From contig WPAE01000016.1 of NCBI GenBank assembly GCA_009773205.1, positions 1 to 64,000 on the forward strand: a DNA stretch of 64,000 nucleotides, read 5' to 3'. Source of the stretch: Ignavibacteria bacterium (GTDB lineage Bacteria > Bacteroidota > Ignavibacteria > Ignavibacteriales > Melioribacteraceae). Under the pieces are notes generated by a model, which saw only the letters and a list, made by a program, of their open reading frames with translations, searched no databases and was not told the origin of the DNA. The translations under genes were made by a program, and so were the position numbers. This document shows, in pieces, positions 2,768-60,564 of the stretch (position 1 is the first letter of the stretch; each line of letters opens with the position of its first letter).

Positions 2768-2975
2768 TGAATAGTGTCTATTTATCTAAAATTAAAATCA
2801 AAAATATTTTTAGTAATTGCAACAAAAATTTCTATCCTAAACTAAGATGATGAATATATCAGATAAATCTAATACAGAACCGAAATAAAAATCAGGACTA
2901 ATACGATTTCCCTTGAAAAAAAGAGAACAAATTTGCATTATAGTAAACGGTAAAGTAATTGATAAAGGTAAATTG

Positions 2976-4556
2976 ATGAATAAGCATTGTCTTAACATAA
3001 AACTACTTTTAATAATAATAATTTTTGCTGTAAACAGTTCCATAGGTAAAACTTATTATGTAGCACCAAATGGTTCCGATTCTAACGATGGAACGAAAAG
3101 CAATCCATTTAAAACTATTGCTTTTGCTACAGGAAAAGTAGCTGCTGGTGATTCGATCTTGCTGGCGCCTGGTACTTATTCAATTAACTCTACAATTAAT
3201 ATTACAAAAAGTGGAACTGTAGATTCAAAAATATATTTGTTAGTAAGTGAGAATGGAAGAGCTTTGTTGGATTGCTCGTCGCTTCCGTTTAGCAGCAGTA
3301 ACAGAGGCATAAATCTAAAAGCAAATTATTGGTATATGAAAGGCTTAGATATTAAAGGCGCTGGCGATAATGGAATGAATATAAGCGGCTCCAACAATGT
3401 TATAGAGTTCTGTACATTTTATGAGAATCAAGACACAGGTTTGCAGTTAGGCGGCGGAGCTTCGAACAATAGAATTATTAATTGTGATTCCTATTTTAAT
3501 GCAGACCCTTCAAATGGTAATGCCGATGGATTTGCACCCAAGTTGGATGTAGGCACAGATAATTATTTTTACGGATGCAGAGCTTGGCAGAATTCTGATG
3601 ATGGCTGGGATGGATATTTGCGCCCTTCTGATAATGTTAATACCATAATTGAAAACTGCTGGAGCTTTATGAATGGTTATTTAAAAAACCGCTCGGCATC
3701 TTCAGGAAACGGCAATGGATTTAAAATGGGAGGCGGAGATAACTCTAATAAAGACAGCCTTAGAAACAATGTTACTATTAAAAACTCTCTTTGTTTTGAT
3801 AATAGAGTTAAAGGTTACGATCAAAACAATAATTATGGAAGTATGATTCTACTCAACTGCACCGCTTTTAGAAACGGTTCGCTTAACTTTGCAATTCCCG
3901 GAAAAATTAGAGCTACAAGTGAAGTAACAGTCAAAAATTGTATTTCATATATATCTACCGGGGTTAATCTAATAAGTAAAACTGTGCAAACCACAAACTC
4001 ATGGAATTTACCAATTTCGGTAACCGATAAAGATTTTCTTTCAATTGATACAACAGGAGTCCGTGGTCCAAGAAAAAAAGATGGAAGTTTGCCAGACTTA
4101 AAATTTCTTAGACCCTCAAAGAACAGTCAGTTTATTGATAAAGGAACCGATGTTGGTATAGCTTATAAAGGAAGCGCACCGGACTTAGGCGCATATGAGT
4201 ATGATGAGTTTTTTACTTCTGTAATAAAAGATGAATCACCAACATCATTCATATTAGAACAGAATTATCCAAATCCGTTCAATCCGAATACAGTTATTAG
4301 CTATAAACTACAAGCAGCAAACCACGTAACTTTAAAAGTGTACGATGTTATTGGAAGGGAAGTAGCAACATTAGTTGATGAATTCAAGCAACCCGGAATT
4401 TATAGTTCTCAATTCTCAATTCTCAATCTGCCTGCCGGTAGGAAAGGTTTTCAATTATCTAGCAGTGTTTACTTTTACCGTTTAACAGCCGGAAATCCTT
4501 CGTCTGGCTCAGGACGTGGTTTTGTGCAAACAAGAAAAATGCTTCTTTTAAAATGA
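2976..4556 (+). CDS. secreted right-handed beta-helix protein, PL9-like pectate lyase, T9SS sorted
   Basis: Probable polygalacturonate/rhamnogalacturonan lyase exported by type IX secretion. The track starts at a TTG (2913), but ATG 2976 begins a clear signal peptide (NKHCLNIKLLLIIIIFAVNSS) and follows an AAAGG ribosome site, so I use it. The mature protein opens with YYVAPNGSDSNDGT and a DUF1565-like start, then parallel beta-helix rungs rich in Asn and Gly, as in family 9 polysaccharide lyases. The last 90 residues are a T9SS type A sorting domain (NYPNPFNPN, GREVATLVDE, KMLLLK). That domain is distorted by two extra in-frame stretches, one made of three TTCTCAA units. It is the first gene of the pectin cluster. 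The lyase call rests on fold and context; no catalytic Lys was verified. Confidence 0.78.
   Translation: MNKHCLNIKLLLIIIIFAVNSSIGKTYYVAPNGSDSNDGTKSNPFKTIAFATGKVAAGDSILLAPGTYSINSTINITKSGTVDSKIYLLVSENGRALLDCSSLPFSSSNRGINLKANYWYMKGLDIKGAGDNGMNISGSNNVIEFCTFYENQDTGLQLGGGASNNRIINCDSYFNADPSNGNADGFAPKLDVGTDNYFYGCRAWQNSDDGWDGYLRPSDNVNTIIENCWSFMNGYLKNRSASSGNGNGFKMGGGDNSNKDSLRNNVTIKNSLCFDNRVKGYDQNNNYGSMILLNCTAFRNGSLNFAIPGKIRATSEVTVKNCISYISTGVNLISKTVQTTNSWNLPISVTDKDFLSIDTTGVRGPRKKDGSLPDLKFLRPSKNSQFIDKGTDVGIAYKGSAPDLGAYEYDEFFTSVIKDESPTSFILEQNYPNPFNPNTVISYKLQAANHVTLKVYDVIGREVATLVDEFKQPGIYSSQFSILNLPAGRKGFQLSSSVYFYRLTAGNPSSGSGRGFVQTRKMLLLK
4406..4427 (+). repeat. three exact tandem TTCTCAA units inside the T9SS domain
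   Basis: The 7-mer TTCTCAA occurs three times in a row within the coding sequence of the beta-helix protein. Three units make 21 nt, so the frame is kept (SSQFSILNL). The same word (AATTCTCAATT and its complement) recurs in intergenic repeats at 17.77 and 19.08 kb. Confidence 0.85.
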
Positions 4557-12002: not shown

Positions 12003-13700
12003 ATGCAACTAAAAAAGTACAACTTACTAATTGTATCATTAGTGCTAATTTTTACTTCCATTTCATTAGCTCAAAATGTATTAAGGCTAAAACCATACGA
12101 TGGAACGCCCGCTACATTCTTAGTAGCACAAATTAAAGCAGATACTGCTGCTAACAAAGGCATTCTTGCAACTAGAATTTACGAACTTGAAGCCGGTGGT
12201 GTTTATCTAAACACAGAAATATTTAACGTATCTTCAAGATTCACATTGAGAATTAGAGGTGCAGCAGGAGGTAAAAAACCAATAATTTATCAGCACCCAA
12301 CAGGTACAGGCTCAAGCCCGCAAAACCCTCCTGGCAACCTTTTTGTTTTAGTAGGCGGCAATTTAGAAATATCTAACATTGCAGTTTCTGGCTTTTTTGA
12401 GTTAATGCCAGAGCATCTCAATAATGTTCAAGGCGGTTTAATTAATACCACCGGAGCCGGTTCAACTATAATTGTTGACAGATGTATTTTTAATAATATC
12501 AACGGTCAGCATATTAGAACAGGAAGCGCAACTGCAAAAATTAGAGTAACAAACACAATTTTTGCAAATATGGGCGCACTAAGTACTTCAAATTTAGGCG
12601 CTGGAAAAGGTTTAGACCTTCGCGAAGCCTCTTGCGATTCTTTAGTTTTAGTTAACAACACTTTTGTTAATTATTTAGATAGACCTATACGCCATTATAA
12701 TTTTGCAAATCCATTAGCAGGTACAGGCGGCATCAAGTTTGCTCTAATTGATCATAATTCATTTATTAACGGAATGGGCTTTCATGGGTTACTTTCGTTA
12801 GGTAACGTAGGAAAGAGCATAATTATTAGAAATAATCTTTTTGTTGATGGATTTGCTTCTGGTGCAGATCCAACCGATGCAACCCGCGCAGCAGAGTGGG
12901 CAAATACTGGTGAAAAATTACCTAACGGATTGAACAGAATGATGTGGATTTTTTCGGCTCCAAATGATACTACTAAATGGATAGTAAAAAACAATGTTTA
13001 CAGCATTTCCAGTGCAGGTCAAAAATTCTTTGATGATCATAAGGCAGTTCCTATTACAGAAGGTTCACCGCTATCCTGGCACATCAATAAAAAATTAGGG
13101 CCCGATTCTACAAAAGCCTTTGCTAAAATGAATGTAACACTTGCAAATATTCCAGCATTAATGACAAACTTAATGCTCTGGTATCTTGACCCTGCTGGTG
13201 GAAACAAAACCAAAAACACACCTTCCAATCTTTGGCTTGCTGCTCTGCATGATATGGATAGAAAACCAATTACTTATTACCGCGATGAGTTTAATGCAGC
13301 TTTTACTTCTACAAATCCGGCTTTTACTGCTGCTGAAAAAAGCTTTCCGGTTGGAGACTTAAACTGGTTTCCTGCAAAGAAAACAGAATGGGAAAAAGCA
13401 GGCGGAACTGATATAGTTCCTTCTGCAGGCATTCCTGCGGATTTTAGTTTGCAGCAAAATTATCCTAATCCATTTAACCCAACTACAAGAATTACATTTA
13501 ATCTGCCAAAAAACAGTTTGGTTAATCTAAGTGTGTACAACATATTAGGCGAAAAAGTAGCCACAGTTGTTAATCAGGAATTAGTTGCAGGCGTGCACGC
13601 ATACAATTTTGATGGTTCTAGGTTAAGCTCTGGTGCATATTTTTATAAATTAGATACAGAACAAGTAAGTTTAACAAAAAAGATGATGCTCGTGAAATAA
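12003..13700 (+). CDS. secreted beta-helix protein with T9SS sorting domain
   Basis: Exported surface protein of unknown activity. A signal peptide (LLIVSLVLIFTSISLAQ) leads to a region resembling DUF4957/DUF5123-type domains found in pectin loci of Bacteroidota (LRIRGAAGGKKPIIYQHPT), then Asn-rich helix rungs (IRNNLFVDGF, VKNNVYSISS). The C-terminal 85 residues are a regular T9SS type A domain (NYPNPFNPTTRITF, YNILGEKVATV, SSGAYFYKL, KKMMLVK) without the insertions found in three other copies in this window. It follows the TonB receptor by 32 nt with a GGAGG site, so the two probably form one transcript. It might bind glycan in place of a SusD protein, but that is a guess. Confidence 0.82.
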   Translation: MQLKKYNLLIVSLVLIFTSISLAQNVLRLKPYDGTPATFLVAQIKADTAANKGILATRIYELEAGGVYLNTEIFNVSSRFTLRIRGAAGGKKPIIYQHPTGTGSSPQNPPGNLFVLVGGNLEISNIAVSGFFELMPEHLNNVQGGLINTTGAGSTIIVDRCIFNNINGQHIRTGSATAKIRVTNTIFANMGALSTSNLGAGKGLDLREASCDSLVLVNNTFVNYLDRPIRHYNFANPLAGTGGIKFALIDHNSFINGMGFHGLLSLGNVGKSIIIRNNLFVDGFASGADPTDATRAAEWANTGEKLPNGLNRMMWIFSAPNDTTKWIVKNNVYSISSAGQKFFDDHKAVPITEGSPLSWHINKKLGPDSTKAFAKMNVTLANIPALMTNLMLWYLDPAGGNKTKNTPSNLWLAALHDMDRKPITYYRDEFNAAFTSTNPAFTAAEKSFPVGDLNWFPAKKTEWEKAGGTDIVPSAGIPADFSLQQNYPNPFNPTTRITFNLPKNSLVNLSVYNILGEKVATVVNQELVAGVHAYNFDGSRLSSGAYFYKLDTEQVSLTKKMMLVK

Positions 13701-16926: not shown

Positions 16927-17763
16927 ATGAGTTTTTATCCTCAACCAAATAAATATCAATGCGGTCCATTCGCATTAAAATATGCCTTAGTAATGCTTGG
17001 TGTATTTAAAGATGAAAACCAGATTGGTCAAATTTCCGGAAGCACTTGGTGGGCAGGCACAGATGAATTTGGATTAACAAGAGCAGCAAGAAGGTTTAAC
17101 TGCAGCTTGAAACATTTTCAATCCAGCAATCCGGATGATGCACGCAAAATGTTAATTCAACTTCTTAAAAAAGGTTATCCTTGCATTTTGAGTGTAAAGA
17201 ATTGGGAACATTGGTGTACAGTCGTAAGCTATCAAAAAGGAAAGTTTGTTGTTATTGACAGCGAACTTGATAAAGTAGTTTCTGTCTTTACTACTACAAA
17301 ATTTTTAAAACGCTGGAAATATGTTGAGGATGAAACAAAAATTGTAAGCTTCGATGGCTATGTGCTTGTTCCAAAATTTAAATCTTACACACATGCACAG
17401 TTTACACCAGAAAAAGCAAAACTGCTTATGTATGATAAAAATGATGATCTTGCTAATAAATGGGATCAATACACAAATGATTTGATTACTATTTGCAAGC
17501 CGAGAACCAAGCTAAGCCTAAACATTATTTCATTTTCAGAGTTTATGAGAAGAAACGAGCAAAATTTAGTAAAGCGTACTGCTAACTGGCATGGCGAACC
17601 AACTTACAGCGAATTGAAAAAGATTATTAGTAATATGAAGTTTGTTGCAGAGGTTTATGATTTAATTATTCCTGAAGATGAAGAAAAAAGAGCCGCAATT
17701 GATGTTGCTTCTTTGCTTATGATGTACGCTTGCGGCAAGTACGGAATGAACAGGATTTATTAA
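16927..17763 (+). CDS. C39-like papain-fold cysteine peptidase / transpeptidase protein
   Basis: Cytoplasmic protein (no signal peptide, no membrane helix) with a papain-like core. The Cys motif is KYQCGPFALKYALVMLG near the N-terminus, the His is in NWEHWCTVVSY, and the Asp is in FVVIDSELD, in that order and spacing as in C39-like domains. The C-terminal 140 residues are not recognised and contain charged helices. The track begins at TTG 16891; ATG 16927 is the first good Met and leaves the Cys motif about 13 residues in. A GTG at 16909 is the alternative. Opposite-strand pairing with an ATP-grasp ligase suggests the two act on the same peptide, one making and one cleaving or transferring. 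That link is inference. Confidence 0.72.
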   Translation: MSFYPQPNKYQCGPFALKYALVMLGVFKDENQIGQISGSTWWAGTDEFGLTRAARRFNCSLKHFQSSNPDDARKMLIQLLKKGYPCILSVKNWEHWCTVVSYQKGKFVVIDSELDKVVSVFTTTKFLKRWKYVEDETKIVSFDGYVLVPKFKSYTHAQFTPEKAKLLMYDKNDDLANKWDQYTNDLITICKPRTKLSLNIISFSEFMRRNEQNLVKRTANWHGEPTYSELKKIISNMKFVAEVYDLIIPEDEEKRAAIDVASLLMMYACGKYGMNRIY

Positions 17764-17917
17764 TTGAGAATTGACCCGCTCCGATGAGTCGGAGACGAGG
17801 CGAGGAATTGCGAACTTGTCCGCCATCTTGTCCGCACGCCGTTTTATGGAGGGTTGGGCGGGTAAGTCGAAAACAACATTTTTTAATAATGATCTTGGAT
17901 TTTTAGAGTAGGCTCAT
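17764..17917 (+). repeat. composite of two interspersed repeats, including a truncated copy of the inverted-terminus element
   Basis: The left part (17764-17812, GAATTGACCCGCTC ... GACGAGGCGAGG with an inner CTCCGA-TGAG-TCGGAG hairpin) recurs inverted at 19026-19090. The right part (about 17815-17917, TTGTCCGCCATCTTG ... AGAGTAGGCTCAT) matches the right half of the elements at 53.7 and 60.6 kb, but its left terminus is missing. Its AGAGTAGGCTCAT end lies 22 nt before the start of the next gene. Confidence 0.8.
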
Positions 17918-19025: not shown

Positions 19026-19090
19026 CCATTTTCAATTTCTCGCCTCGTCCCCGACAAGGCTGAGCGGGTCAATTCTCCATTCTCAATTTC
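19026..19090 (-). repeat. interspersed repeat overlapping the end of the SixA-like gene
   Basis: Inverted relative to the copy at 17764-17812; shared words are CTCGCCTCGTC and GAGCGGGTCAATTCTC. It is preceded by GAACGCGGATAACGCGGATT, itself repeat-like. The stop codon and last residues (LRMEN) of the neighbouring gene fall inside it. Confidence 0.7.
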
Positions 19091-34652: not shown

Positions 34653-34786
34653 GGTCATCTCAAAAGTCCAATTGTCATTTCGAGCTTGCCCCATATTTGC
34701 TGGGCGTGGTCGAGAAAAGAAAATTTTCGCTGCATTCACACTTCTACTTTACTCAGTGTGACGCTGAAAATAACTTTTGAGGTAGC
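34653..34786. repeat. MITE-like repeat with imperfect terminal inverted repeats
   Basis: Ends are GAGGTCATCTCAAAAGT on the left and ACTTTTGAGGTAGCC on the right, inverted copies sharing CTCAAAAGT plus a partly conserved outer half. The interior holds TGTCATTTCGAGC, a word typical of dispersed repeats in this group, and a CACACT/AGTGTG inverted pair. It begins at the queF stop codon. Only one copy is seen in this window. Confidence 0.6.
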
Positions 34787-42439: not shown

Positions 42440-43654
42440 ATGAAAAAGCTATGTACAATTTTTGCACTCATACTATTTACAATAAATATAACAGCTCAAA
42501 CCGATCCAACTATCCAAACAATTATTAATAAAGTAAGCATAGATACATTGATGAGTTATCTTGGCGAGATTTGCGGAGATAAACAAATAACAATCAATAA
42601 TTCACCTACAAGAATTTTATCAAGAAACCGTTACAGTACAGGCAATGCATATATGCCATATTATCTTATAGAAAAATTTGAAAAATTTGGCTTGGTAGCA
42701 CTTCAGCAAAATTTTATGACTGACGGTCAAAATGTTTATGCAATACAAAACGGAAGGAAGTCAGATCAATATGTAATTATTTGTGCTCACTATGATAATA
42801 TGCCATCTTCTGGAATTGCACCGGGCGCTGATGATAATGGAAGCGGAACAGTTGCTGTTTTAGAGGCAGCAAGAATTTTATCTAAATATAAATTCGATTT
42901 TACAATAATTTATGCGCTTTGGGATTTAGAAGAGTATGGGCTGCACGGGAGTAATTATTATGCGCAAGAAGCCAGCTTTAGGGGCGATAAAATTGCTGCT
43001 GTAATTAATTTAGATATGATTGCTTGGGACAGCAATAATGATTTTAAGGCAGAAGTTCATTCGAGAAATGTTTCTACAACACTTGAGCTTGGCAACTTAG
43101 TGCAAGATGTAAATAGAAATTATTCTGTTGGTCTTAACATGTTTACTTCTACACCCGGCACCAACGCAAGCGATCACGCATCGTTTTGGAGATACAATTA
43201 TCCGGCAGTTTTATTAATTGAAAGTATGGGTGATTTTAATCCTTATTATCATAAAGTAACCGATGATATTTCGAAAATTAACAAACCATATTTCGAAAGA
43301 ATGTCGAAATTAGCTATTGCAGTTACAGCGGTTTCTGCTGTGCCAGTTTCGGCTGCTTCGGTTGCGCAAAACTTACCAAGTGAATTTAAATTGAACCAAA
43401 ATTATCCCAACCCGTTTAATCCAAGTACAGTAATCAGTTACCGTATTTCAGAACCAAGCCACGTAACTCTTAAAGTGTATGATGTTTTAGGAAGGGAAGT
43501 TGCAACATTAGTAGATGAACACAAACAGCCCGGCAGTTATAAAATTGTTTTTAATCCAGCATCAAGTATCAAGAATCCAGCATCTGGAATTTATTTCTAC
43601 CGGTTGGTAACACCAACAGCTACGATAACAAAGAAGATGGTCTTAACAAAATAG
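42440..43654 (+). CDS. M28-family metallopeptidase with T9SS sorting domain
   Basis: Secreted zinc aminopeptidase. Signal peptide (KKLCTIFALILFTINITAQ), then the di-zinc site: His in VIICAHYDNM, Asp in APGADDNGSGTVA, Glu in LWDLEEYGLHGS, Asp in VINLDMIAWD and His in SDHASFWRY. The last 85 residues are a T9SS type A domain (NYPNPFNPST, GREVATLVDE, SGIYFYRLV, KKMVLTK). The loop before SGIYFYR is expanded by a 21-nt duplication. Three hairpins follow the gene. Confidence 0.93.
   Translation: MKKLCTIFALILFTINITAQTDPTIQTIINKVSIDTLMSYLGEICGDKQITINNSPTRILSRNRYSTGNAYMPYYLIEKFEKFGLVALQQNFMTDGQNVYAIQNGRKSDQYVIICAHYDNMPSSGIAPGADDNGSGTVAVLEAARILSKYKFDFTIIYALWDLEEYGLHGSNYYAQEASFRGDKIAAVINLDMIAWDSNNDFKAEVHSRNVSTTLELGNLVQDVNRNYSVGLNMFTSTPGTNASDHASFWRYNYPAVLLIESMGDFNPYYHKVTDDISKINKPYFERMSKLAIAVTAVSAVPVSAASVAQNLPSEFKLNQNYPNPFNPSTVISYRISEPSHVTLKVYDVLGREVATLVDEHKQPGSYKIVFNPASSIKNPASGIYFYRLVTPTATITKKMVLTK
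43553..43584 (+). repeat. direct repeat inside the T9SS domain of the M28 peptidase
   Basis: AATCCAGCATC occurs at 43553-43563 and again at 43574-43584. The spacing is exactly 21 nt, so the reading frame is kept (NPASSIK then NPASGIY). It sits in the same loop as the repeats at 4.4 and 49.97 kb. Confidence 0.85.
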
Positions 43655-47056: not shown

Positions 47057-50000
47057 ATGAAGAAGGCATTTTTCGTTGTATTACTGGCTTTATTCACAGT
47101 TAATGTTTCGGCACAATTAAAGAAAATTGAGGGGAAAGGAATCTATACGGAGAGAGATATTTATCTTGACTCTAATGGAAAAAGATACTCAAACCAAGTT
47201 TCTTTTCATTTTTTTAAGCAAACGCTTACAGAAAATAGTTATAACCTTGAAAAATTGAACAACTCGAAACTAAAACAGATATTAACCGCTATTGAAAAAG
47301 ACTTTGGCAGCTTCACAATACGTAAGGCGTATACAGATAAACATTGGGGCGATTCTATAAGCACAAATATCATTACGAAAAAACCAGTTTTTGTAAGAGA
47401 TCTATCACAATTCTATCGCCTTGAATTTGACAAGATAATTTGTGTAGATGAGGTAATTAACAAACTTAAAGAAACAAAAATATTTAGATCAGTTTGGGGT
47501 CCTGTTTGTAAGGTGGATATGTATTCTCCAAGTGATTACATACCAACAGCTCAGTGGGCAATGAATAATACTGATGCAACAAAAGCATGAGATATCACAA
47601 AAGGAAGTTCGCAAATAAAACTTGCAGGGTGTGAAAGTTCAAAATGGGATTTAAATGATCCAGGTCCTTTGCACATGGAATTACAAAATGGAAAAATAAG
47701 CATTAATTTTGGTCAGTATGCCGGAGGTCATGGTCAACAGGTGCTAGGCGTAGCAGGCGCACTGACAGATAATAATAGTTCTAGTATAGCTAGTATTGGG
47801 TTTAATACGAGTTTGATGTGGTTTAACAAAGGTTATAATGATATCCAACGGGCACGCATTGCTAATGCTGATATAATTAATACAAGTTGGGAATATTGGT
47901 GGGAAGACGGTGATACAGATGCACAGATTTATGGGGCATTACAAGAGGGAAGAATTGTTGTAGCTGCTGCAGGAAACGCCAAAAGATATATAACGGAACC
48001 AGAGCGACCATATGTAACTTATCCTGCTGCACATAACTTTGGTTCTGTTGGACAAGTTATTGCTGTAAGCGCAACTGGTAAGAATAGTTCTGGGATTGAA
48101 CAGTTTGCAGATACTCCCATTTCAATTCCAACTTTTAATTATAGCCCTGGCAGTAATCCTATAGATTCAGCAAATGCATTTATTGATTTTGCTGCTCCAG
48201 GTCTAGGAATCAGAGTGTTACATGATAGTCTTGAGTCTGAATATGCAACAGCAAATGGTACATCATTGTCGTCACCATTTGTAGCCGGTGTTGTAGCTTT
48301 AGTTAAATCAATTTATCCAAGTCTTACACCTCAAACAGCTTATACAATATTGAAGAATTCTGTTGATAAAGTTGACCAATCAAGACATCCAGATTCTTAC
48401 ACAGACGCAAATGGATATGGTTGGAACCAATATACAGGTTGGGGTCGTGTAAATGCTTATAAGGCATTAAAATATACGATTGAACATTATGGAGGTACAT
48501 TTAACCAGAATGTGATATTACCAGCCGGAGACACATGGAACTTGCAGCCTGGTGTTACTCTTTCGTTTGCTTCTGGTTGCGCGTTAATTGTTAATGGTAC
48601 ATTAAATGCTGTTGGCAACTCATCAAATCCAATAACATTCACAAAAAGCGGTTCAAGTAATTGGGGTGGTATTCAATTTAACAATGGCAGCGGAGGGAGC
48701 TTACAGCATTGTAATATCAGTTACGCTACTAATGGTGTTTATTCATATAATTCATCTCCCACTATTAAATACAGTACAATAGAAAATAATTCAAGTAGAG
48801 GTTTATATTGCGATTATTATTCAAGCCCAGTACTTGTTGGCAATAACTTAAGAAGCAATACTAATTACGGAATTAGGCTGAATTATTATAGTTCTCCAAA
48901 TCTAACAGACAATGGATACCCGGGTACTAATGTTATAAGAAGTAATGGATCAGGTATGTTGACATCATATTATTCAAATCCGAACTTGAACGGATATATG
49001 ACATATGGAAATAGTGTGTTTGATAATACAGGATATGAAATAGAAGCCTACTATGGCTGTACCGTAAGCGCACAAAGAGTATTCTGGGGAAGCGGTGGAA
49101 CGGTATATGCAACAAGCGGTTCAACAATTGATAATTCAAATCCTCTTCCTAACAATCCAAATCTCGGCAGAAAACTGGTAGCAGACAATTTGTCAAACCC
49201 GTATAGCAATGCCGTAAACCTAAAAATTGCAGCAGACGACCTAACACCTGCTCTTGATAAACAGAAAGAAAAGAAATATGATGAAGCAATACCATTGTTT
49301 TTAAATGTGTTCAAGAATAATAAAGATGTTCTTCTTGGCAGATATGCACTCATTAAAATAGAAGAATGTTTTACTCAGGGCGGAAAGAAAAATTATTTGG
49401 ATTATTCTAAGAAAGAAATAAAACCATTGCTAAAAGAAGGAAGCGAAGTATATGTAGTTGCCTTAGAACTTGAAACACATCAAATGGTAAATCTTGGTTT
49501 GTATAAAGAAGCAATTGCAACGCTTCAAACGATACTCAAGAAATACAACTTAAACGAAGCTATTGAGAAGAATACACTTTTTAGTTTGGGAGTTTTCCAT
49601 ACCATATTCTTAGGAGATAAAGCAAACTCTGATAAATATTTTGAAGAACTAAAGAATAAATATCCCAAAGATGATTTGGTGAATCAGATTGAAATAGTAA
49701 GAGGATTAGGACTTGCTTCAAGAAATACACTTCAAGGCGGCAGCGAGTCCATTCCGGTTGAGGTAACTTCTCAAACTGTAACTGCGGCTAATCAAGAAGT
49801 TGAGGTAGCAAACTATCCGAATCCATTCAACCCAAGTACAGTTATAAATTACAAGCTGCAAGAAGCAAGCCACATAACTCTTAAAGTGTATGATGTTTTA
49901 GGAAGAGAAGTTGCAACATTAGTAGATGAATACAAACAGCCCGGCAGTTATAAAGCAACATTTGATACACGTCATGCTGAACTGAGCCGAAGCATACCAA

Positions 50001-50071
50001 GCGGAATTTATTTTTACAGAATTAGTGCTGGTGATTATACTGCTGTGCGTAAAATGATTTTGCTAAAATAA
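47057..50071 (+). pseudogene. subtilisin-like S8 protease with beta-helix and T9SS domain, split by in-frame TGA
   Basis: ATG 47057 follows a GAGGTG site. The N-part (signal peptide, propeptide-like region, IPTAQWAMNNTDATKA) stops at TGA 47588-47590. The same frame resumes with DITKGSSQIKLAG and stays open to 50071. In S8 proteases this point normally reads A-W-DIT, so a TGG-to-TGA change explains the break. His (GGHGQQVLGVAG) and Ser (NGTSLSSPFVAGV) are present, but the usual Asp of the D-S/T-G motif aligns with Glu in AGCESSKWD. Downstream are a parallel beta-helix (YYSSP repeats, about 440-640), a TPR-like helical part and a T9SS tail. It is most likely an inactivated gene; readthrough or a sequencing error cannot be excluded. 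Confidence 0.85.
49971..49995 (+). repeat. dispersed repeat unit inside the T9SS domain of the S8 protease gene
   Basis: GTCATGCTGAAC ... GAAGCAT resembles the common dispersed word GTCATGCTGAGCGAAG found in many Bacteroidota-type genomes. In frame it encodes RHAELSRSI between KATFD and PSGIYFYR, exactly the loop that is expanded in two other sorting domains here. Confidence 0.7.
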
Positions 50072-60495: not shown

Positions 60496-60564
60496 TTACG
60501 CAATAGAGTAATTATTTGTCATTCTGATTTCGCTTTAGCGAATGAAGAATGACAAACTGCGTAA
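60496..60564. repeat. nested palindromic repeat after rocD
   Basis: Outer arms TTACGCA/TGCGTAA and inner arms TTTGTCATTCT/AGAATGACAAA around TTTCGCTTTAGCGAA. The inner word TGTCATTCTG belongs to dispersed repeats common in related genomes. No ORF. Confidence 0.7.

Follow-up and report, generated by a model that had tools for sequence, protein, structure and literature searches.

Three genes in one stretch of Ignavibacteriales DNA carry different small repeats within the same loop of a T9SS sorting domain. The question raised by this locus is whether the loop is a tolerant landing site for repeats found elsewhere in the genome, or a place where variation is selected. The window, that is the whole stretch of 64,000 nucleotides analysed, belongs to a genome of 4.14 Mb in 476 contigs and encodes six T9SS type A sorting domains (CTDs; PF18962, 80 amino acids in the canonical form), three of which are without an insert. 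Three places in the domain are named here: LA, between YKL and VTLKVYD; LC, between F and SGIYFY; and LD, after YRLxAG. The features concerned are the following.

2913 to 4556, plus strand: ORF for a PL9-like beta-helix protein (PF22842) with a T9SS CTD (PF18962) at 4263-4553
4406 to 4442, plus strand: PL9 insert in LC, three TTCTCAA units (4406-4427) followed by CTGCCTGCCGGTAGG (4428-4442)
4493 to 4519, minus strand: second PL9 insert, the reverse complement of CCACGTCCTGAGCCAGACGAAGGATTT, in the predicted beta5-beta6 turn (LD)
13458 to 13697, plus strand: insert-free CTD of 80 amino acids (control)
42440 to 43654, plus strand: ORF for an M28 peptidase (PF04389) with a T9SS CTD (PF18962) at 43400-43651
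43553 to 43584, plus strand: heptad-like M28 insert AATCCAGCATCAAGTATCAAGAATCCAGCATC in LC
47669 to 50071, plus strand: ORF for an S8 protease (subtilase; PF00082) with a beta-helix region (PF13229) and a C-terminal T9SS sorting domain (PF18962)
49811 to 50068, plus strand: S8 CTD, 86 amino acids against the usual 80 (AF2 model, pLDDT 85.5)
49971 to 49995, plus strand: REP-like S8 insert GTCATGCTGAACTGAGCCGAAGCAT, in frame, in the predicted beta4-beta5 turn (LC)

As the preliminary description had claimed, the sorting domains of the S8, PL9-like and M28 proteins are expanded at one common place. All three inserts are observed between the strand ending in F and SGIYFYR or SSVYFYR, and every carrier reads through in frame. 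The domain at 13.4-13.7 kb is short-looped, as expected, and PF18962 matches of normal length are obtained for the two CTDs at 45.3 and 46.8 kb. With a PF18962 cut-off of 27 bits, the S8 and M28 domains score above threshold (36.4 and 31.0, respectively); the PL9 domain alone falls below it, at 22.5 bits with a match that stops at the insert, and reaches 27.6 bits with its in-frame neighbours. The three PL9 TTCTCAA units are present with a period of 7 (TRF), and the genome has 16 heptad dimers in all. The S8 repeat is dispersed, the same element being found in six further CTDs of the window genome, with related GTCAT..GAGC copies outside ORFs.

Other parts of that description need amendment. 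In the M28 insert, which recurs in identical form in two further CTDs of the genome (L038 and L051), AATCCAGCATC does occur twice with a spacing of 21 nt, but degenerate heptads, ATC[CA]AG[CTA], are a better description than the supposed duplication. Nor is there a single landing loop: the beta4-beta5 loop is indeed used, but three turns take inserts, and the PL9 insert at 4493-4519 had been overlooked. This insert, which can also be described as the reverse complement of a CCTGAGCC...GAAGGAT element, lies in the next hairpin, and LD inserts like it are found in about nine further CTDs of the window genome. A paralogue of the window S8 gene (G000:C297:8825-10335) has internal stop codons and is probably a pseudogene.

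The turns used were read from a wider survey of the domain. The window genome has about 98 matches to PF18962, some of them weak, and 71 complete CTDs were read; a further 49 from a relative (G001) and 31 from three other genomes of the family or order bring the total to 151. The relatives' CTDs were drawn from matches to insert-bearing queries, so their percentages are not unbiased. Long alignment gaps are observed at LA, LC and LD only. LC holds an insert in 73 of the 151 domains (31/71 in the window genome, 26/49 in G001 and 16/31 in the other three), LD in 27 (12/71, 7/49 and 8/31) and LA in 21 (5/71, 11/49 and 5/31). LC reaches 29 residues against the usual 6, and all three turns are filled in some G001 CTDs, for example L302. 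No inserts were found in the other two of the five turns among the 71 window-genome CTDs; the DVLG turn has 10 amino acids in 151 of 151 domains and the KQPG turn 13 in 147 of 151. A set of 80 loci taken from named genomes, MAGs of Ignavibacteria and other phyla, likewise includes CTDs with LA and LC expansions. FlgD-like 11-residue turns were excluded from the insert counts, and the automatic list contains a few parsing errors (e.g. L032, the LD of L068 and the LC of L327) whose effect on the totals is no more than a few. Repeated CTDs may be wrongly joined in MAG assemblies; a wholesale artefact is unlikely, because the CTDs diverge by 10-20% and several independent assemblies agree. Three contigs of the window genome, C248, C106 and C369 (L056, L076 and L074), stop within CTD copies, which indicates that the assembly breaks at CTDs.

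AF2 models of the S8 and PL9 domains (pLDDT 85.5 and 83.7) agree in their six strands, with the inserts extruded. In these models LA corresponds to the beta1-beta2 turn, LC to beta4-beta5 and LD to beta5-beta6; the PL9 inserts merely extend the latter two and leave the flanking strands in place. Searching the PDB by fold gave only weak matches, to FlgD and T9SS CTDs (best E 4.6e-3), so the AF2 secondary structure served to assign the turns. The F. johnsoniae translocon has a plastic CTD-binding pocket, and a beta4-beta5 loop of the CTD is variable there (PMC10994853). By analogy this would fit tolerance of longer turns; the strand numbering is unmatched between the two.

The inserts were found to comprise several unrelated families, namely GTCAT...GAGC-type REPs, GTAG...CTAC palindromes, CTGCC-type palindromes and heptads (TTCTCAA, ATCCAGC), and a single turn may be occupied by different families.

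Window genome, 7 CTDs: GTCATGCTGAGCTGAGCCGAAGCAT
Window genome, 3 CTDs: GTCATCTCGAGC...GTCGAGAGAT
Window genome, 1 CTD: GTCATTCCGAGCGGAGTCGAGGAAT
Window genome, 1 CTD: GTAAAGACGCGCCGTGGCGCGTCTCTAC
Window genome, 4-5 CTDs: CTGCCTCGACTGGCGCAAGGCAAGGCGGGCGTTCT and variants
Window genome, about 10 CTDs: heptads, alone or flanking a palindrome
Window genome, 3 CTDs: ATCCAGC heptads
Window genome, 2 CTDs: CTGCCGACAAGGCAG in LA
Window genome, about 10 CTDs: reverse REP, or a degenerate form of it, in LD
G001: GTAAAGACGCCATATATGGCGTCTCTAC and variants
G001: GTCATCTCGAGCGNAGTCGAGAGAT in LC, in both orientations (RHLERSREM, RHLSTPLEM)
G001: GTAGTGGACGCAAATTTTGCGTCCACTAC in LA

One genome holds at least about a dozen family-by-turn combinations, although the minimum of 12 founders is our own grouping and not a phylogenetic inference. 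In G001 a GTTGCATGCAAC palindrome mostly begins just past G-x-Y and replaces strand beta4 and the loop with no change in length; length alone thus undercounts inserts. Rfam gave no match for the window, L291, L296 or L380.

The idea of a tolerant landing site would have been refuted had the loop sequences failed to match intergenic repeats, or had similar insertions been equally common elsewhere. Both outcomes favour it. Inserts match DNA outside CTDs, mostly intergenic, while shuffled inserts do not. Such copies include the following.

17760 to 17810 of the window, minus strand: intergenic copy of a heptad-flanked palindrome as found in CTD LC loops
19032 to 19084 of the window, plus strand: second copy of the heptad-flanked palindrome, almost wholly between ORFs
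34674 to 34715 of the window, plus strand: intergenic element, GTCATTTCGAGC...GTCGAGA, with related LC inserts in L024 and L057
L079:2448-2508: copy of an insert repeat outside a CTD

Genome-wide counts rest on pattern searches and on retrieved sequence stretches, and some non-CTD matches, L056:47-100 and L076 among them, probably represent CTDs cut off where a contig ends. Four of the seven copies of GTCATGCTGA in the 4.14-Mb genome are in CTDs. For TTCTCAATTCTCAA there are 16 sites, with none for the reversed-pattern control: ten in CTDs, where 0.09 would be expected from CTD length, four outside ORFs and two in one other ORF. GTCATNNYGAGC has 39 sites (control 3), nine of them in CTDs, most others outside ORFs and few in other genes. 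GTAG palindromes of the form GTARAGAC..GTCTYTAC occur at 48 sites in G001 (control 0), with 28 in CTDs (five placed by CTD-match coordinates and not read), 17 outside ORFs of at least 90 amino acids and three in other ORFs. The REPs of G001 have 31 sites, with 14 in CTDs, 11 of those inspected outside ORFs and six uninspected. CTDs make up some 0.6-0.8% of these genomes (about 0.8% in G001), and the repeats are enriched in them 39-106 fold relative to the genome. Other coding DNA is sparser by roughly 270-1000 fold or more, or has none that were found, and two CTD turns are essentially invariant across the 151 domains. Compared with intergenic DNA, the density in CTDs is 8-24 fold higher. These figures were calculated with 250 nt per CTD and 12% intergenic DNA and as though copies were independent, although they are not; they do not count separate insertions.

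Several repeats of the window genome that lie outside CTDs were noted individually. A UDP-glucose/GDP-mannose dehydrogenase ORF (L132:576-2084, C460) has a tandem REP-like coding stretch at about residue 178, which separates the N-terminal from the central Pfam domain. An SNF2-type helicase ORF (L078:8966-11863, C459) carries an in-frame GTCATGCTGA repeat at about residue 810, and a 485-amino-acid ORF without a Pfam match (L138:1267-2724, C454) an in-frame heptad-flanked composite repeat at about residues 371-411. Outside ORFs, GTCATGGTGAGC occurs in tandem with a spacing of 39 nt at L130:1650-1760 (C448), with single copies at several further sites, and an intergenic hairpin-like repeat, GTCATTCTGATTTCGCTTTAGCGAATGAAGAATGAC, lies at 60518-60553 of the window.

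The probable explanation is that repeats insert widely, are purged from most coding DNA and survive in tolerant CTD turns, where recombination then multiplies and shuffles them. In this Ignavibacteriales lineage, several short palindromic (REP-like) and heptad families would insert around the genome, and such insertions would be lost from most coding DNA, a purging that is inferred. They could survive in frame in the length-tolerant beta1-beta2, beta4-beta5 and beta5-beta6 hairpin turns of the type A domain; that the lengthened signals still work in secretion is likewise an inference. Recombination would spread and shuffle the inserts across unrelated cargo proteins because the CTD is present in roughly 100-150 similar copies per genome. 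The presence of the repeats in a few other genes too counts against this explanation.

Mobility of the repeats is also inferred, perhaps by a RAYT-like Y1 transposase in the case of the GTAG family. In G001 a Y1_Tnp (IS200-like) transposase gene at L380:1316-1837 carries one GTAG palindrome in frame (VETRHASSLQ) and is followed, just 3' of its stop codon, by a second palindrome, an arrangement which resembles REP-associated transposase loci and is suggestive only. The window genome has three Y1_Tnp matches.

The 8-24 fold excess over intergenic density is more than tolerance alone predicts. Copying between CTDs would be sufficient to account for it but is unproven as its source, and a density above that of intergenic DNA means that biased insertion or selection is not excluded and cannot be separated here from such copying. 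The CTD turns might thus be preferred or selected capture sites, either through biased insertion or because changed loops are favoured, for example in carrier or sorting interactions or surface exposure. The dozen or so family-by-turn combinations in one genome and the G001 domains with all three turns filled would agree with this. However, the non-CTD copies have no obvious common flanking target, the counts are inflated by copying between CTDs, and there are no fitness or export data; capture of this kind remains unlikely, though not negligible. We advance only tentatively the broader proposal that the three turns capture mobile palindromes and heptads, by preferential insertion or retention, and that shuffling between cargo genes yields ever-new versions of a secretion signal, the G001 palindrome even encoding a core beta4 stretch with domain length unchanged.

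The explanation by insertion, purging and recombination draws for its last step on CTDs that are observed to be mosaic. CTDs with the same insert occur in seven unrelated genes, with 77-90% CTD identity. Between the window S8 gene and the other six in its genome, similarity is confined to the stretch from the CTD start to about its end, with background levels outside; two of the six diverge just past the insert and one ahead of it. CTD pairs with the same insert have an identity of 0.90 at the loop, compared with 0.55 for pairs with different inserts, in which the 5' half retains 0.72-0.83 in the bins before the loop. L008, L011 and L056 have a common 3' end: L008 lacks an insert, L011 has heptads, and in L056 a net 30-nt palindrome breaks up the heptads. 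On sequence grounds alone, these patterns may be read as repeat insertion followed by recombination between CTDs, and much of the repeat copy number probably results from recombination between CTD cassettes and not from separate insertions. The landing-site idea must be qualified to this extent, as well as in the number of turns. Relatives of the S8 gene in G001, G003 and G008 share its body (51-65%) but end in another CTD, one without an insert; in G001 the PL9 orthologue carries other inserts, a palindrome in LA and a GTAG palindrome in LC. No clean orthologous pair of an empty and a filled CTD site was found. The M28 orthologue L261 was considered as an empty site and rejected, its loop resembling a degenerate GTAG palindrome; L263 and L264 have slightly different loops and no repeat-like insert.

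An identical insert in seven unrelated genes would also be expected if a single ancestral insert-bearing CTD had spread by duplication and conversion only, with little or no new insertion. However, many unrelated families, in both orientations, occupy one turn, identical palindromes exist outside CTDs, and PL9 orthologues carry different inserts. This account is very improbable, being largely contradicted already. Also very improbable is retention of the repeats as RNA elements, with REPs acting near gene ends and the CTD being merely such an end. REPs are known near the 3' ends of genes (PMC3733652), CTDs are C-terminal, and palindromic inserts fold, inserts as a whole exceeding control windows (mean z -1.86 vs -0.09, p 1e-10). 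This excess is driven by the LA and LC palindromes; heptads and LD inserts fold unremarkably (weak fold z-scores), and palindromicity is claimed for neither. Furthermore, other genes lack in-frame repeats near their ends, bar one C-terminal case (L395), and the inserts are positioned exactly at turns. Ordinary variation in protein loops that resembles repeats by chance, to which the FlgD-like 11-residue turn (SRNNTGSRVTSG type), found also in distant phyla, does contribute some length variation, is already contradicted by DNA matches outside CTDs (perfect 28-nt palindromes identical to non-CTD copies, heptads common to intergenic DNA, and reversed-pattern controls of 0-3) and can be virtually discounted.

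Parallels with known repeats are evident, as are differences. Cyanobacterial STRRs (short tandemly repeated heptamers) are 7-nt tandem units dispersed in the genome, as are the heptads of the window genome, but the units here are TTCTCAA and ATCCAGC and often lie in CTD turns. The palindromic families resemble Rickettsia palindromic elements (RPEs) in being short and in occurring both between genes and in frame within proteins; RPEs, however, tag many unrelated proteins, whereas the inserts here cluster in a single sorting domain, at three of its turns. The REP, GTAG- and CGTC-tagged palindromes associated with RAYTs are likewise small and lie between genes, in some cases within them; in G001 the family has GTAG ends and, as no more than a suggestive parallel, one Y1_Tnp gene carries such a palindrome and is followed by another. 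By contrast, the G001 family has GTAG or GTAA at both ends, is not mainly intergenic (28 of 48 copies in CTDs, more than between genes), and is accompanied here by heptads. The domain itself is a type A CTD in family and beta-sandwich fold, judged by profile and weak structural matches, and differs in a beta4-beta5 turn of up to 29 residues instead of 6. Intragenic CGTC repeats of R. conorii have been equated with RPE-4 and RPE-6, and Di Nocera et al. discussed neutral placement in linkers and loops together with an apparent excess in DNA repair genes (PMC3733652).

The open-access papers searched do not describe repeats in T9SS CTDs or a concentration of them in a secretion signal. Intragenic insertion of REPs and RPEs is already known, and its concentration in a secretion signal, whose function here is inferred, is a new form of it. 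Small non-coding repeats can become a source of protein sequence at a recurrent and predictable position, and more than 100 insertions in one domain provide a natural series from which rules of tolerance may be read, indicating at which turns the T9SS signal could accept tags. Whether intragenic REPs are neutral leftovers or useful raw material thereby becomes a testable question.
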